Source: Nitrososphaerota archaeon
GTDB taxonomy: Archaea > Thermoproteota > Bathyarchaeia > Bathyarchaeales > Bathycorpusculaceae
Direction of reading: 5' to 3'
Assembly (NCBI GenBank): GCA_031283385.1
Contig: JAITBW010000043.1
Span: 1-10,020, forward strand
DNA: 10,020 nt
Positions 166 to 8,690 of this stretch are shown in pieces (position 1 is the first letter of the stretch; the number at the start of each line of letters is the position of its first letter). Made by a program: the position numbers and the translations under genes. A model generated the notes under the pieces. That model worked only from the letters and a program-made list of their open reading frames with translations, was not told the origin of the DNA and did no database searches.

Positions 166-1092
166 TTACTCCAAAAACTGCTCCAAATACTCAATTACCC
201 GTGTATATGCACCAACGTCTTCAGGTCCAAAACGATTACCAGATTTATCATAACCAAACAATACCTCACCAGCGTGTTCCCCAACAGATTCATTATATTT
301 AACCCTAAAAACAAGCCGAGTTACCAACTCTTTTTGCACATGAAAAGTCAATAGAGGAAAATTTACCCCAGGAAAAAACAGATCAAACTTTTCACCAACA
401 CGCCTCTCTATAATGAAAACCTTACAGTCTGCTAAAGACATAAGACTATCAAAAAGAGACCGCTCATACTTTGGAAGAGAAACTTGAACAGACAAATCAG
501 CCTTCTTCCGAAAATCCACAGCTTTTTCACAAACATTTTGAACATCCCAAAGCTCAACACCACACTTTTCCGCAGCCAATCTCGCCTGCTCAGAAAAAAA
601 GGCAGTAACTAAAACAATAACATGCTCACATTGATAACTAATCTTTGCCTGCTCAGCCAACAAAACAGCCACATCAGAAACCACACAATCTCCACAATAC
701 TTACGAGCCAAAATAGCAGTCTTTAAACCATCCTTTACAGATATAAAATCCACACCAAACCGCTCAAAAGCCTTCTCAGAAATAACACTATAACCTAACC
801 CCTGCAGAAACCATGTCATAAATACTTCAAACTCTTTATTCGACAAACATCCAAAATTATAAACAGCCGCCTTACACTTCGCTAAATCTACAGGTTTTTC
901 AGCAATTAATCTAACATGTTTTCGCTCAGTATCCTCAACAATAGCTTGTAGACAGTCTTTCTGTATTCTACACGCAAGCACCTCTGCCTTATCAAGAGAC
1001 AAAAAAAGGCGATCCTGAAGAAACTCTACAAGATCAACAGTGGGGTTTTCAAGTATTTCTTGCAAAAAACCATTAAATTTTACACAACACAT
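166..1092 (-). CDS. Mrr-like restriction-endonuclease-fold protein
   Basis: A 308-aa protein and the last gene of the helicase operon. Residues about 85-190 look like an Mrr_cat-type PD-(D/E)xK domain. There is a helix with KEFEVF (E87 and E89 are candidate acidic residues), then a YSV strand, FGVD with D115, and a following strand ending in ARK (K131). After that comes a long helix, a VIVLVT strand and the FFSEQARLAAEKCGVELWD stretch, the usual Mrr C-terminal part. In typical Mrr proteins the lysine lies in a QxK motif; here the Gln position is Ala129. The first 80 residues (mostly helical by eye) and the last 110 match nothing I recognise and may bind DNA or a partner. The ATG is supported by GATGAGG at 1100-1106, seven bases upstream. 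The gene begins 22 bases after the zinc-protein stop, so it is probably co-transcribed. In the family this domain cleaves foreign or modified DNA; the activity here is inferred. Confidence 0.72.
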   Translation of the reverse strand: MCCVKFNGFLQEILENPTVDLVEFLQDRLFLSLDKAEVLACRIQKDCLQAIVEDTERKHVRLIAEKPVDLAKCKAAVYNFGCLSNKEFEVFMTWFLQGLGYSVISEKAFERFGVDFISVKDGLKTAILARKYCGDCVVSDVAVLLAEQAKISYQCEHVIVLVTAFFSEQARLAAEKCGVELWDVQNVCEKAVDFRKKADLSVQVSLPKYERSLFDSLMSLADCKVFIIERRVGEKFDLFFPGVNFPLLTFHVQKELVTRLVFRVKYNESVGEHAGEVLFGYDKSGNRFGPEDVGAYTRVIEYLEQFLE

Positions 1093-1114
1093 ACCATAGC
1101 CTCATCAGTAATTT

Positions 1115-2464
1115 TCACATTTTTTTATGTTTAGGACATAACTTGTGCTCAAACGCGTCAGTATATGATAAATTATCCTTTGAGTAAATTTTTTCATTAC
1201 CACAAGCATCACAATAATCATAATGTTGAATACAAACACTTGAACCATCATAACTACATTTGAACTCAAGCAAACGACTATAACGCTTCCTACACACAGA
1301 ACACACAAACCCAGAACCTTGCTCGATATACTCATTTAATATATCATCAAAGCTTAAACAAGCCTTTTTAGAGTACAATTTACCCGAATCTATAGACTGC
1401 TTAACACAGTTCCCACATACATACAAACCGTCATGCGTAGCATACCCTTCAGTAAAACCTTTCTTACACAAAGGACAAGTAACTTCAACAACAGAATTTA
1501 ACCCCAAAACTAAACTTGAATGAAACAGGGCATTATTGTTAAGAAGTACATCAAATTTTACTTTACACGTATTAATAACCAAAAAATTTACCAATTTCAC
1601 TGAAACACTAGTTAAATAAGACTCCTCTTCCCGCTTCAACAACGCTTGATAATTATTTTGCCACTTTAAAGGATCAAAATCATGCTTATGAGAAAGAATA
1701 TGTTCACGCCGCTCCTGCTTAAGCCTCTTCTCAAAAGCCCTAAGCCTAACATTTCTCTCTTTACTAAGAGGCAAATCAAAAAGCGCAACTTTATCACGAA
1801 GCAAAGATTGCAAAGTTTCATCAGCAACCTCCAAAAGTTGGTCAAACACGTCAGGTTTAACCTTACCTTTACCTTCAGAAACTGACAAAGTATTACATGC
1901 TATATCAAGGCAAGTATCAAAGTTTGTTTCAATAACGTTAGCTTTTTCGTCAAGCCAAACGGTTATTAATTCTTCATTTTTTTGCCGTAACTTGTTATGA
2001 AAAGTAACGGAATAGAAGAATTGAAAATATCGCACGGGTTCTTGTTTGCCTATTTTTATCTGCATAATTTTGCCATGGTTAATTTTGTGGTAACAATTTT
2101 TAGGTTTTATACATATGTTAAACGTTTTTTGTTCAACAGTTATTTTGCCACAGTCTATGCAAACAATTTTTGAGTCCTTAAAGTAGTGTTTAATGCTGGT
2201 TTCTAAATTTTCTTTTGGACAAAGTTGTATTTGACAGGGAACCCCAGTTTCTTGACAGTCACGTATTACCTGTTGGAAAGCTGGACTTCCAGGAGCTATA
2301 AGAGGGATTTTATTTTCGCGACTAATATTTGGGCAGTAAGTAAAAGTTTCTGGCTCGCAGGTATCAGAATAAGTTACGTATATAATGTTGTTTTCAATGG
2401 TTAATTTGCCGTCTTTGGATTTAATGTATGCTTCAAAAAAGTTTTCAATGTTTGTTTTGCTCAA
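1115..2464 (-). CDS. Cysteine-rich multi-zinc-binding protein coupled to SNF2 helicase
   Basis: A 449-aa protein and the middle gene of the operon; I do not recognise it as a named family. The N-terminal third (about 1-190) is a mixed alpha/beta region with a lone CxxC at C102/C105. Residues about 200-290 are charged and probably helical or coiled. The C-terminal 120 residues carry several candidate zinc sites: C330xxC333 with C350xxC353, C388xxC391 with C403 or C411/H414, and C418xxC421 with C443xxH446. This suggests tandem treble-clef or zinc-ribbon modules for nucleic-acid or protein binding. The start is a TTG that overlaps the helicase TGA in TTGA, with AGAGG upstream; the next in-frame ATG is at about residue 134. 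The arrangement implies translational coupling and a fixed ratio with the helicase. A loose analogy is the Bacillus subtilis YqhH (SNF2 helicase)/YqhG gene pair; this is from memory and unverified. Confidence 0.68.
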   Translation of the reverse strand: MSKTNIENFFEAYIKSKDGKLTIENNIIYVTYSDTCEPETFTYCPNISRENKIPLIAPGSPAFQQVIRDCQETGVPCQIQLCPKENLETSIKHYFKDSKIVCIDCGKITVEQKTFNICIKPKNCYHKINHGKIMQIKIGKQEPVRYFQFFYSVTFHNKLRQKNEELITVWLDEKANVIETNFDTCLDIACNTLSVSEGKGKVKPDVFDQLLEVADETLQSLLRDKVALFDLPLSKERNVRLRAFEKRLKQERREHILSHKHDFDPLKWQNNYQALLKREEESYLTSVSVKLVNFLVINTCKVKFDVLLNNNALFHSSLVLGLNSVVEVTCPLCKKGFTEGYATHDGLYVCGNCVKQSIDSGKLYSKKACLSFDDILNEYIEQGSGFVCSVCRKRYSRLLEFKCSYDGSSVCIQHYDYCDACGNEKIYSKDNLSYTDAFEHKLCPKHKKM

Positions 2465-4332
2465 TCAATTATGCCTCTGGTAAATTTTTCAGATAGTTCT
2501 TGACGGGTTTTTGATGTGTTCAAGTTATTAGCTAGTTTTTCTAGTTCATTTTGGATGTCTATGCGTGATTTGCTGCGTAGGAGGATTTCTGCTATGGTTT
2601 TTTGGATGTCCTGGTCGCCTTCTTTAAGTTCTGCAAGCACGGTTTCCATTTTACCAATTGTCATAGTGAATAGTTCGATTTTTTGGTATAAAATATGTAG
2701 TACATAGTCATCTATAGTGTCTTTAACCGCTAGGTTGAAGACTGTTACATCTCGTTCTTGTTTGAATCTGTGAATTCTGCCGATTCGTTGTTCAATTTTC
2801 ATAGGATTCCAGTGTAAATCGTAATTAAACATCATGGCACAATTCTGTAAGTTAAGACCCTCAGCTGCAGCGTCTGTTGCAATTAAGTATTGTATATCGC
2901 CTTTTTTAAAGGCTGAAATAGTTGCGTCTCTTTCAATTTGAGTCATATCGCCTATGTACAGTTCAGCTCTGCCAAATTCTTTATCAAGCATTTCTTTAAT
3001 TTTGCGTGCAGTAACTTTTCGTAAACAAAAAATTAGCGTTTGCTCTTTAAGAGTTTCATTTAAAATGTTTCTTAGTAAGTCCATTTTGGCGCTTTTGATG
3101 TTTTTAGCCATTTCAATAAGCTTATTTGTAGCTTCGGCTTCCATAGGAAAACGTTGTTGTCGTTTTTTTAGTGACTCTATAACAGCTTCAGGGGAGCTAG
3201 AGAAGGATTGTTGAAGAGTTATTGCTTGAAAGACAAGTATGGCGTGACTTTGAGGGCCGCTTATTTTTCTATTAGGATTTTCAGCCATTAGGGCTTCAAT
3301 TGTTTTAAATTTGTTTTGACTAACGGCATGTAGATACTCTGTTGCTTTATCTATAAATTCACGCTCACATGGATTAGCTTCAAGTGTTCGGGATTCAACA
3401 ATTCGTTTGGTAAAAGGAACCTCTGCTTGTTCTCGGCGTGTACGGCACATAACGTCTGTAAGGACTCTTTTAAGCAGAGGTACTTCTTCTTGTCTAACTA
3501 TACGACCTCGTGTATCCTCAGCAAATCTAGAAATGAACACGCGTTCACTATCTAAAACTCCGGGTTGAACTAAGTCGACTATGCTGTAGAGATCTAGAAG
3601 CTTATTGCATAAAGGCGTAGCTGTAAGCAATAAAAAATGACTCTTACGCATATTTCCAAGACAAATACGACCCTTACTGTGAACATTCCTAAAAGCATGA
3701 GCCTCATCTACAACAATTAAATCCCAAACGCGGCTTGCAAACTCTTCAAATTTTCGAGACAGCAAGTTATGAGAGCAGATAATTCTATTATCAACTCTAA
3801 AATTCACACGCTCACCGGGGTAATTAGCTATAAGAAAATTTTCCCCAAACTTTTCAGCCATCTCCATTTTCCATTGAAAGAGCAAACTTTTGGGAGAAAT
3901 AATCAAAATAGAGTTAACTTCTCCGCGTAAAAGTAGCTCTTTTATAATTAAACCCGCCTCTATAGTCTTACCTAAGCCTACCTCATCGGCTAAAATAGCG
4001 TTTGCATTCATATCATTAATAACTTGTAGGGCAGTTCGCATTTGAAAATTATAAGGAACCAATTTAGATCGTATAGCATCCAACGCAAGTAGCTGATCAA
4101 ATTTACCAACATTGCCTATTTGGAGTGCTTCAATGTTAAGCAGAAACTTTTGATAAGGTGAGAAACGGTTTGTTAAAACCAGTTTTTTAAGGTTATATGG
4201 ATCACTATAAGTATAGCTGTATTTATGCAGCAGTTTTTTATCTGCAATTACTTCTTCAAAACTACACAGAACAGTTTTTTCCTTGCTTTTTTGATAAGAT
4301 CGAGAGTTTTTTAGTTTTTCAGGCAAATGCAT
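2461..4332 (-). CDS. SNF2/RapA-like superfamily 2 DNA translocase
   Basis: A 623-aa protein and the first gene of the operon. All core SF2/SNF2 motifs are visible: motif I ADEVGLGKTIEAG (Walker A K122), Ia with SPKSLLFQW (about 146-154), motif II DEAH (209-212), motif III LTATP (236-240), motif V ATDAAAEGLNL (485-495) and motif VI QRIGRIHR (515-522). Between the lobes, SSSPEAVIESLKKR (about 378-391) is the kind of segment found in RapA/HepA-type bacterial and archaeal SNF2 proteins. The N-terminal 95 residues lack any recognisable RapA-type accessory domain, and the last 80 residues are Lys/Glu-rich and probably coiled. All catalytic residues are intact, so it should translocate on duplex DNA using ATP, displacing or remodelling bound protein. 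The ATG is favoured because a TATA box about 26 bases upstream predicts a leaderless mRNA beginning at it and no Shine-Dalgarno site is present. It overlaps the next gene by four bases. Confidence 0.92.
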   Translation of the reverse strand: MHLPEKLKNSRSYQKSKEKTVLCSFEEVIADKKLLHKYSYTYSDPYNLKKLVLTNRFSPYQKFLLNIEALQIGNVGKFDQLLALDAIRSKLVPYNFQMRTALQVINDMNANAILADEVGLGKTIEAGLIIKELLLRGEVNSILIISPKSLLFQWKMEMAEKFGENFLIANYPGERVNFRVDNRIICSHNLLSRKFEEFASRVWDLIVVDEAHAFRNVHSKGRICLGNMRKSHFLLLTATPLCNKLLDLYSIVDLVQPGVLDSERVFISRFAEDTRGRIVRQEEVPLLKRVLTDVMCRTRREQAEVPFTKRIVESRTLEANPCEREFIDKATEYLHAVSQNKFKTIEALMAENPNRKISGPQSHAILVFQAITLQQSFSSSPEAVIESLKKRQQRFPMEAEATNKLIEMAKNIKSAKMDLLRNILNETLKEQTLIFCLRKVTARKIKEMLDKEFGRAELYIGDMTQIERDATISAFKKGDIQYLIATDAAAEGLNLQNCAMMFNYDLHWNPMKIEQRIGRIHRFKQERDVTVFNLAVKDTIDDYVLHILYQKIELFTMTIGKMETVLAELKEGDQDIQKTIAEILLRSKSRIDIQNELEKLANNLNTSKTRQELSEKFTRGIID

Positions 4333-4354: not shown

Positions 4355-4364
4355 GATATAAAAA
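4355..4364 (-). promoter_or_regulatory. TATA box for the helicase operon (leaderless)
   Basis: The minus strand reads TTTTTATATC. Its centre is about 26-27 bases before the helicase ATG, the normal TATA-to-start-site distance in archaea, so transcription is predicted to begin at or next to the first base of the start codon. The absence of a Shine-Dalgarno motif agrees with a leaderless message. Confidence 0.55.
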
Positions 4365-4528: not shown

Positions 4529-4702
4529 TTGGTTAAAAAGAAAGAAGAAAGTGTAGAAGTTACTGAAGCAGAAACTTTTGCGTCTTACAGTGGAAAGCTA
4601 AAACAGAAGTACGGAGATAATTGGCTTGGGAAAGGCAAATGTACAGGTCTTGAATTCAAACGCTGGTTAGCTCTACGAGACAACAAAACAGAAATCCCCT
4701 AA
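4529..4702 (+). CDS. Small lysine-rich protein of unknown function (57 aa)
   Basis: The reading starts at TTG and runs to TAA at 4700-4702. The start is supported by GGGAG at 4515-4519, nine bases upstream, and by a TATA box at the right distance before that. The protein begins with a charged segment rich in Lys and Glu, then has SYSGKLKQKYGDNWLGKG, one Cys (C38), two Trp (W32, W46) and a final basic helix around FKRWLALRDNK. There is no signal peptide or membrane segment, so it should be cytoplasmic. No family is recognised. It is divergent from the helicase operon and shares its promoter region, so it could be a regulator or simply a neighbour. An oligo-T terminator follows. The combination of promoter, ribosome site, protein-like composition and terminator argues for a real gene. 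Confidence 0.6.
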   Translation: MVKKKEESVEVTEAETFASYSGKLKQKYGDNWLGKGKCTGLEFKRWLALRDNKTEIP

Positions 4703-4898
4703 CATACAAAATAACCATTTTTTTGGAGCCCAGAGTAATTTCGCAAAAGACCTAATATACAATGTCGATTAAATTATTTTTTAGTGTAATTGCTAAAACG
4801 TTTTTGGATGTTAAAGTTGATGGTTTAGTGTTTATTTTTGGTTTTTAAAGTCGAAATAGTCTTAAAGTTGAGGCTTAGAATATTTCGTTGAAGTTTAC
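4703..4898. other. Intergenic region before the GTPase gene, no clear gene
   Basis: AT-rich spacer. It holds the terminator of the small gene and probably the GTPase promoter. Weak TATA-like stretches are TTTTTAAAG near 4842-4850 and CTTAGAATA near 4874-4882, and neither is decisive. No Shine-Dalgarno motif precedes the GTPase ATG. A 28-codon open frame at 4762-4848 lacks supporting signals. Confidence 0.4.
4718..4724 (+). terminator. Oligo-T terminator after the 57-aa gene
   Basis: T7 run 16 bases past the stop codon, with no hairpin; a typical archaeal U-tract terminator. Confidence 0.5.
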
Positions 4899-8585: not shown

Positions 8586-8690
8586 GTGGATAAAAAATGT
8601 GCTGTATGTAAACAAAAATTTGTAACCTTTGATGCTAAAAAGAAATACTGTAGCGATGCTTGCACTAAGAAAGCTAACAAAGCAAAATAA
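8586..8690 (+). CDS. Zinc-finger microprotein (34 aa)
   Basis: GTG start to TAA at 8688-8690. The protein has a CAVC pair (C5, C8), a phenylalanine-centred spacer, then KYCSDAC (C22, C26) and a lysine/alanine-rich tail. The pattern CxxC-x13-CxxxC with YCSDAC resembles short zinc fingers such as the YacG-like and DUF2116-type proteins, in which four cysteines hold one Zn ion. A protein this size is essentially a single zinc knuckle with a basic tail and may bind RNA, DNA or a larger partner; the role is inferred. Evidence for a real gene is the strong Shine-Dalgarno site five bases before the GTG, intact paired cysteines, a possible TATA at 8529-8537 and a T6 terminator five bases after the stop. 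It lies divergent to rps12 and convergent to the beta-propeller gene. Confidence 0.78.
   Translation: MDKKCAVCKQKFVTFDAKKKYCSDACTKKANKAK

Follow-up and report, generated by a model that had tools for sequence, protein, structure and literature searches.

A three-gene archaeal module, predicted to combine a two-part RapA/BrxHII-class motor and an Mrr-like protein, in Bathycorpusculum and on haloarchaeal plasmids

The stretch of 10,020 nucleotides analysed here (the window), from contig JAITBW010000043.1 of a Nitrososphaerota archaeon, carries a three-gene operon whose first two products are predicted to make up a split SNF2 motor of the RapA/BrxHII class and whose third is an Mrr-like partner; together with its relatives on haloarchaeal plasmids, this module crosses archaeal phyla. 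The probable host genus, judged from the closest relatives of the window, is Candidatus Bathycorpusculum (formerly PALSA-986 in GTDB), which comprises lineages from termite gut, peat, sediment and digesters (PMC10684969). All three genes lie on the minus strand: gene 1 (2461–4332; 623 amino acids, ATG start) encodes the SNF2/RapA-class ATPase motor, gene 2 (1115–2464; 449 amino acids, TTG start) a putative detached RapA-type C-terminal half with a zinc array, and gene 3 (166–1092; 308 amino acids, ATG start) the Mrr-like protein. Their coordinates bear out the compact layout proposed in a first-pass annotation of this DNA, with a four-base overlap of genes 1 and 2 (2461–2464) and a 22-base gap between genes 2 and 3 (1093–1114). 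The TATA box reported there corresponds to the TATA-like element TTTTTATA (4357–4364, minus strand), located 25–32 bases before the ATG of gene 1 and found within 90 bases upstream in seven of the eight loci inspected, the window included; its spacing to the ATG suggests a leaderless transcript.

In the helicase motifs tested, the SNF2 motor is intact, as had been claimed. Gene 1 matches the Pfam families SNF2-rel_dom (6.9e-30) and Helicase_C (7.1e-27), and all 27 orthologues agree in each of the five SNF2 motifs examined. Its nearest profiles are DrmD, DpdE and RapA, all of them matched far under their own cut-offs: DrmD, the top match, scored 251.1 bits in PADLOC and 253.9 bits in NCBIfam (253.9 and 218.8 bits against DrmD cut-offs of 950 and 610), and the RapA equivalog (NCBIfam PRK04914), with gene 1 alone as query, gave 172.4 bits where 576 would be required. 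The PADLOC profile ZorD was matched by gene 1 (7e-36) and by gene 3 (6e-5). By sequence, gene 1 corresponds to the ATPase core of RapA, the match starting near RapA residue 115. The RapA N-terminal domain (residues 1–107), which gates the ATPase (PMC8501970), was not seen in this profile match, with the first ~50 residues of gene 1 lying outside the model.

The remainder of such an enzyme would be supplied by gene 2. In the predicted structure, its residues 1–302 (1559–2464) match RapA 710–968, i.e., an alpha/beta part followed by a beta sheet that carries two long helices, the fold given for this part of RapA and BrxHII in PMC12839542. The two helices (residues 204–282; 1619–1855) are coiled-coil-like and inserted between strands. 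With this C-terminal half present in the model, genes 1 and 2 are described as a predicted RapA-class enzyme split into two proteins. Residues 330–446 (1127–1477) form the tandem zinc array already noticed in the first-pass annotation: all 27 orthologues retain 12 of its 13 Cys/His positions, and 26 retain H446, with a gap in the remaining row. Gene 2 reached no Pfam family above cut-off and no PADLOC family, and a PDB sequence search with its profile returned nothing significant (best E 0.018). The gene 2 families were also compared by sequence with RapA, a single-chain haloarchaeal SNF2 protein (979 amino acids, carrying RapA_C by Pfam) and a Thioclava SNF2 protein, and no link was detected. 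On one metagenome contig, gene 2 is fused with the Mrr-like gene 3 into a protein of 784 amino acids (P0070), which lends indirect support to the trio proteins forming one complex.

For gene 3, the label “Mrr-like nuclease” fits the fold, but not the active site. The Mrr_cat domain (526–846; Pfam 1e-9) has the PD-(D/E)xK fold of type IV Mrr enzymes, whereas its active-site positions read D-L-R instead of D-Q-K. Among the 27 orthologues, the aspartate is kept in 22, Q/E in seven and the lysine in one, which itself lacks the aspartate; none has all three. A nuclease function is unlikely because these residues are gone, and gene 3 is a PD-(D/E)xK protein that lost its active site and was retained by selection. 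Its C-terminal domain (residues 205–308; 169–480), to which no function is assigned, holds a strongly conserved block with PLLTF followed by R and a KYNE.VGE-like stretch. The structure search for gene 3 mostly spans residues 75–201, and PDB sequence searches found nothing significant with its profile (best E 0.17) and nothing with the protein alone.

Of the 32 genomes of the genus, 26 contain gene 2 (19 if only the 23 good genomes are considered), and in all 26, the window counted, the trio is adjacent with order and strand kept. Among the 256 genomes of the class, only one further genome, of a sister genus (G146), carries it, which amounts to 27 genomes and 2 of 108 genera, and a phylum sample of 398 genomes gave 14 gene 2 matches, all within the genus. 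The same 27 genomes contain gene 1 orthologues (E ≤ 1e-60), which additionally occur in one genome of another family of the class (G096), as well as full-length gene 3; the gene 3 profile is matched in 86 of the 256 class genomes, but in the non-carriers among these only partially. A protein search with gene 2 yielded 174 relatives, and all named organisms among the best 120 are Bathyarchaeota, Bathyarchaeia or Nitrososphaerota. No relative was found with this query in viral contigs, plasmids or phages.

Inheritance of the trio within the genus is broadly vertical. Distance matrices computed for each gene covary with one another (r 0.79–0.88), and Mantel correlations with rpoB distances are 0.61–0.66 (23 genomes), as compared to 0.34 for a core GTPase (25 genomes). 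In the trio tree, obtained by a quick search with SH-aLRT support, a clade of eight and a clade of five are both supported at 100, and rpoB recovers both (100 with G031 added, and 98, respectively); the remaining forks are weak or unlike rpoB, e.g., the position of G015. The trio of the sister-genus genome G146 (L137) nests within Bathycorpusculum, therefore indicating transfer or contamination; bin contamination is 8%. For all three genes, the ratio of nonsynonymous to synonymous substitution rates (dN/dS) is well below 1, i.e., they are under purifying selection, with the dN of genes 2 and 3 higher than the gene 1 value by a factor of 1.5 to 4.8. In one genome (G003), gene 2 is frameshifted into two overlapping pieces (L015:8610–9945), which reflects either gene decay or a fault in the assembly. 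The trio is dispensable, since it is absent from four of the 23 good genomes (G005, G012, G013 and G031). In G031, remnants of genes 1 and 3 lie on a contig carrying the same GTPase gene as the window and mark a deletion scar at the window's locus. The first-pass annotation had suggested a DNA-targeting system and considered a mobile defence system; such a system would be patchy, move horizontally and reside in defence islands. For the lineage of the window a mobile system is not supported, given the near-universal presence in the genus, the covariation with rpoB and the searches that found no viral, plasmid or phage relative of gene 2.

Outside the genus, a related arrangement is seen in G096, where a gene 37% identical to gene 1 is followed after four bases by one for a protein of 378 amino acids with CxxC ends and a coiled coil; this pair has no Mrr gene behind it. 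Gene 1 matched 1197 plasmid records, 18 of which, out of 40 listed, were inspected. In 16 of these, a short SNF2 gene (about 570–605 amino acids) precedes a second gene, and two encode a single long chain; in H12 and H30 the DNA contains an uninterrupted second open reading frame (ORF) that is missing or incomplete in the gene table. The same trio, with a Mrr_cat gene in third place, occurs on three of the 16 plasmids, from Haloferax lucentense, Halorhabdus tiamatea and Halocatena salina, and plasmid searches with the Haloferax genes 2 and 3 gave these three records again; no viral relative of Haloferax gene 2 was found. The rest are nine haloarchaeal two-gene loci, of which seven include DUF499 or DUF1156 genes in the inspected sequence, and four cyanobacterial ones.

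Profile comparison linked gene 2 with its counterparts in the haloarchaeal trios (96.9%, P 1.4e-10, 370 columns), with one reversed and five shuffled controls at P 0.1–0.88. The haloarchaeal trio proteins in turn matched eight haloarchaeal two-gene partners (99.9%) and the G096 type (99.2%), while gene 2 matched the two-gene partners over its first 81 columns (92.7%) and reached only 24.6% with the G096 type. Moreover, Bathyarchaeia variants of 578 amino acids share the haloarchaeal C-terminal domain (best BLAST: Haloferax 7e-8, Halorhabdus 3e-9, Halocatena 6e-6). For the second genes of the four cyanobacterial plasmids, which occupy the same position, homology to gene 2 was not detected (P 0.24), and comparison with the proteins of the haloarchaeal trios gave 36.9% (P 3.6e-4). 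The Mrr site D-Q-K is kept in Halocatena, but not in Haloferax or Halorhabdus, and the haloarchaeal gene 2 proteins contain 16 to 48 CxxC motifs as compared to five in the window protein. Two of them (L190:7662–11399 and L186:7728–11015) are giant tandem zinc arrays of 1245 and 1095 amino acids with 48 and 38 CxxC motifs, and the giant gene 2 of Haloferax is absent from the plasmid gene table. A divergent pair of a PbeA-like helicase and a protein of ~280 amino acids (L190:2029–5751, L186:2005–5796), 58–60% identical between plasmids, adjoins two of the three haloarchaeal trios.

Flanking genes were scanned at 20 loci, covering 126 of 171 ORFs (at least 150 amino acids, within 6 kb); four loci redundant with L022 and one ORF of 1443 amino acids were left out, and L020 has no flanking ORF. 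At E ≤ 1e-30, PADLOC matched 23 families (mad3 in three ORFs, mad8, DndA and SspA in two each, the others in one), a descriptive tally without background set from which no enrichment is claimed. The limit is strict, as a true DUF499 scored 2.7e-12, and at this limit neither another DISARM model (drmA, drmB, drmC) nor a Zorya model (ZorA, ZorB, ZorC) was among the 23 families. DndA/SspA profiles match cysteine desulfurases in general. The HamB, PDC-M23B, SngC and BrxHI matches all stem from one helicase (L017), the PbeA match presumably is the XPB-type helicase of L031, and one AbiEi and one AbiEii match may constitute an AbiE pair at one locus. DUF1156, the methyltransferase mark of BREX-related (BR) systems, occurs in three of the 32 genus genomes and never on a trio contig, some of which are short.

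Among the 25 flanking Pfam families listed of 147, most are metabolic, transport or repair families. In G001, a UvrB gene adjoins the trio (L013:632–7162), and shared families and tallies point to UvrA- and UvrC-type genes there and near the trio of G026 (L035:11637–18957); in G022, an XPB-type helicase lies nearby (L031:2836–4185). A link to excision repair is possible. The window's own S12-S7-GTPase neighbourhood is common to G026 only and five loci share another block; therefore the chromosomal place of the trio varies. Universal, syntenic conservation in one clade beside housekeeping genes had been named as the pattern speaking against a mobile system, and most of it is found here, with a near-universal trio of broadly vertical inheritance and mostly such flanks among the families listed, although synteny does not extend across the genus.

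Beyond the trio, the window encodes a TGS-domain GTPase, a protein of 329 amino acids without Pfam family, the ribosomal proteins S7 and S12 and a beta-propeller protein. A small ORF between trio and GTPase gene (4529–4702, plus strand; 57 codons, TTG start) may be a real gene, because the relic genome G031 contains the stretch 4537–4710 at 82% identity. The product of another short ORF (8586–8690, plus strand; 34 codons, GTG start) has its Cys residues in two pairs and resembles a small zinc-binding peptide.

Our best explanation, tentative and quite possibly wrong, is that the trio forms a non-cleaving DNA-clearing or immune complex. The operon products would assemble into one DNA-acting complex, in which gene 1 would serve as ATP-driven double-stranded DNA translocase of the RapA/BrxHII class gene 2 as split-off subunit with a degenerate nuclease-like domain, the beta sheet with two long helices and the added zinc array, and gene 3 as Mrr-like subunit. 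The motor would be recruited to its DNA target, probably via both nuclease-like folds together with the zinc array, and translocation could then strip, displace or block whatever is bound, be it on invading DNA that is being expressed or replicated, or protein complexes that have stalled. The company kept by the trio's relatives points to DNA-targeting defence: two-gene relatives stand beside DUF499/DUF1156 genes of BREX-related systems, and the module may descend from a DNA-targeting defence machine also present on haloarchaeal plasmids. This part of the first-pass proposal persists, unlike that of a mobile restriction system in the window's lineage, where broadly vertical inheritance, loss of the active site, selection and dispensability point to a resident, non-cleaving role.

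A housekeeping function, related to the nucleosome- or repair-linked alternative of the first-pass annotation, is retained as a somewhat unlikely rival. The trio would then be an archaeal RapA counterpart freeing stalled RNA polymerase or other roadblocks, perhaps linked to repair, with the zinc protein and the dead Mrr protein as adaptors. Such a role fits the RapA-type architecture predicted across genes 1 and 2, the broadly vertical inheritance under purifying selection, the Uvr- and XPB-type neighbours and the missing nuclease site, but sits poorly with the single carrier genome outside the genus, the absence from four good genomes, the unseen RapA N-terminal domain, the higher dN of genes 2 and 3 and the plasmid-borne haloarchaeal relatives, several of them in BREX-related loci. 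Active restriction, in which gene 3 or a nuclease encoded elsewhere would cut the DNA located by the motor, is improbable given the catalytic residues incomplete in every orthologue, the rarity of DUF1156 and the mobility not seen within the genus. That the genes are chance neighbours or decaying is hardly credible: the frameshifted gene 2 of G003 and the relic of G031 would fit, but adjacency in 26 of 26 genomes, low dN/dS and the trio's recurrence in haloarchaea speak against it.

Extending the preferred reading of a non-cleaving complex, the trio might, more speculatively, represent an undescribed archaeal three-gene system common to Bathyarchaeia and Halobacteria, with a potentially cutting form on the Halocatena plasmid and a dead form adopted by one genus as chromosomal, non-degrading immunity or silencing machine, whose dead nuclease folds would sense foreign or stalled DNA. 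If so, the RapA-type SNF2 enzyme, involved in bacterial transcription recycling and BREX-type defence, also occurs divided into two separable subunits to which a zinc array is added, and a nuclease partner can persist long after loss of its active site. Since Haloferax is genetically tractable, it would become directly testable in an archaeon whether SNF2 systems cut DNA, strip proteins or free polymerases.

In the open-licence literature searched, including passages of PMC12839542, the trio was not found described or named, in line with the first-pass remark that no named system with this trio was known. By the features tested, it is neither DISARM, whose DrmD is the best profile match of gene 1 but at a score far under cut-off, nor a BR system, as no DUF1156 methyltransferase lies on trio contigs. 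Zorya is similar in that ZorD (labelled SWI2/SNF2 helicase, Mrr-like nuclease in PADLOC) likewise joins an SNF2 motor to an Mrr-like domain. With RapA (HepA), the bacterial RNA polymerase recycling ATPase, the trio shares the SNF2 core by sequence and the C-terminal half in predicted structure, but it splits the enzyme over two genes, adds a zinc array and an Mrr-like gene, and no RapA N-terminal domain was seen in it. The haloarchaeal trio agrees in its three genes, their order and strand and a gene 2 homologous by profile; it differs in its far more numerous CxxC motifs, its plasmid location and the intact Mrr site in Halocatena. According to PMC12839542, BrxHII of Type-3 BREX and the BR helicases combine an SNF2 core, an inactive nuclease-like domain and an alpha+beta domain that bears two long helices; at the end of Type-1 BR helicases stands a PD-(D/E)xK domain. 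This is the domain order of the trio, which spreads over three genes what is a single polypeptide there, and has a zinc array and an Mrr domain without active site. By analogy, we propose that the trio may work like the SNF2 arm of BREX-related systems.
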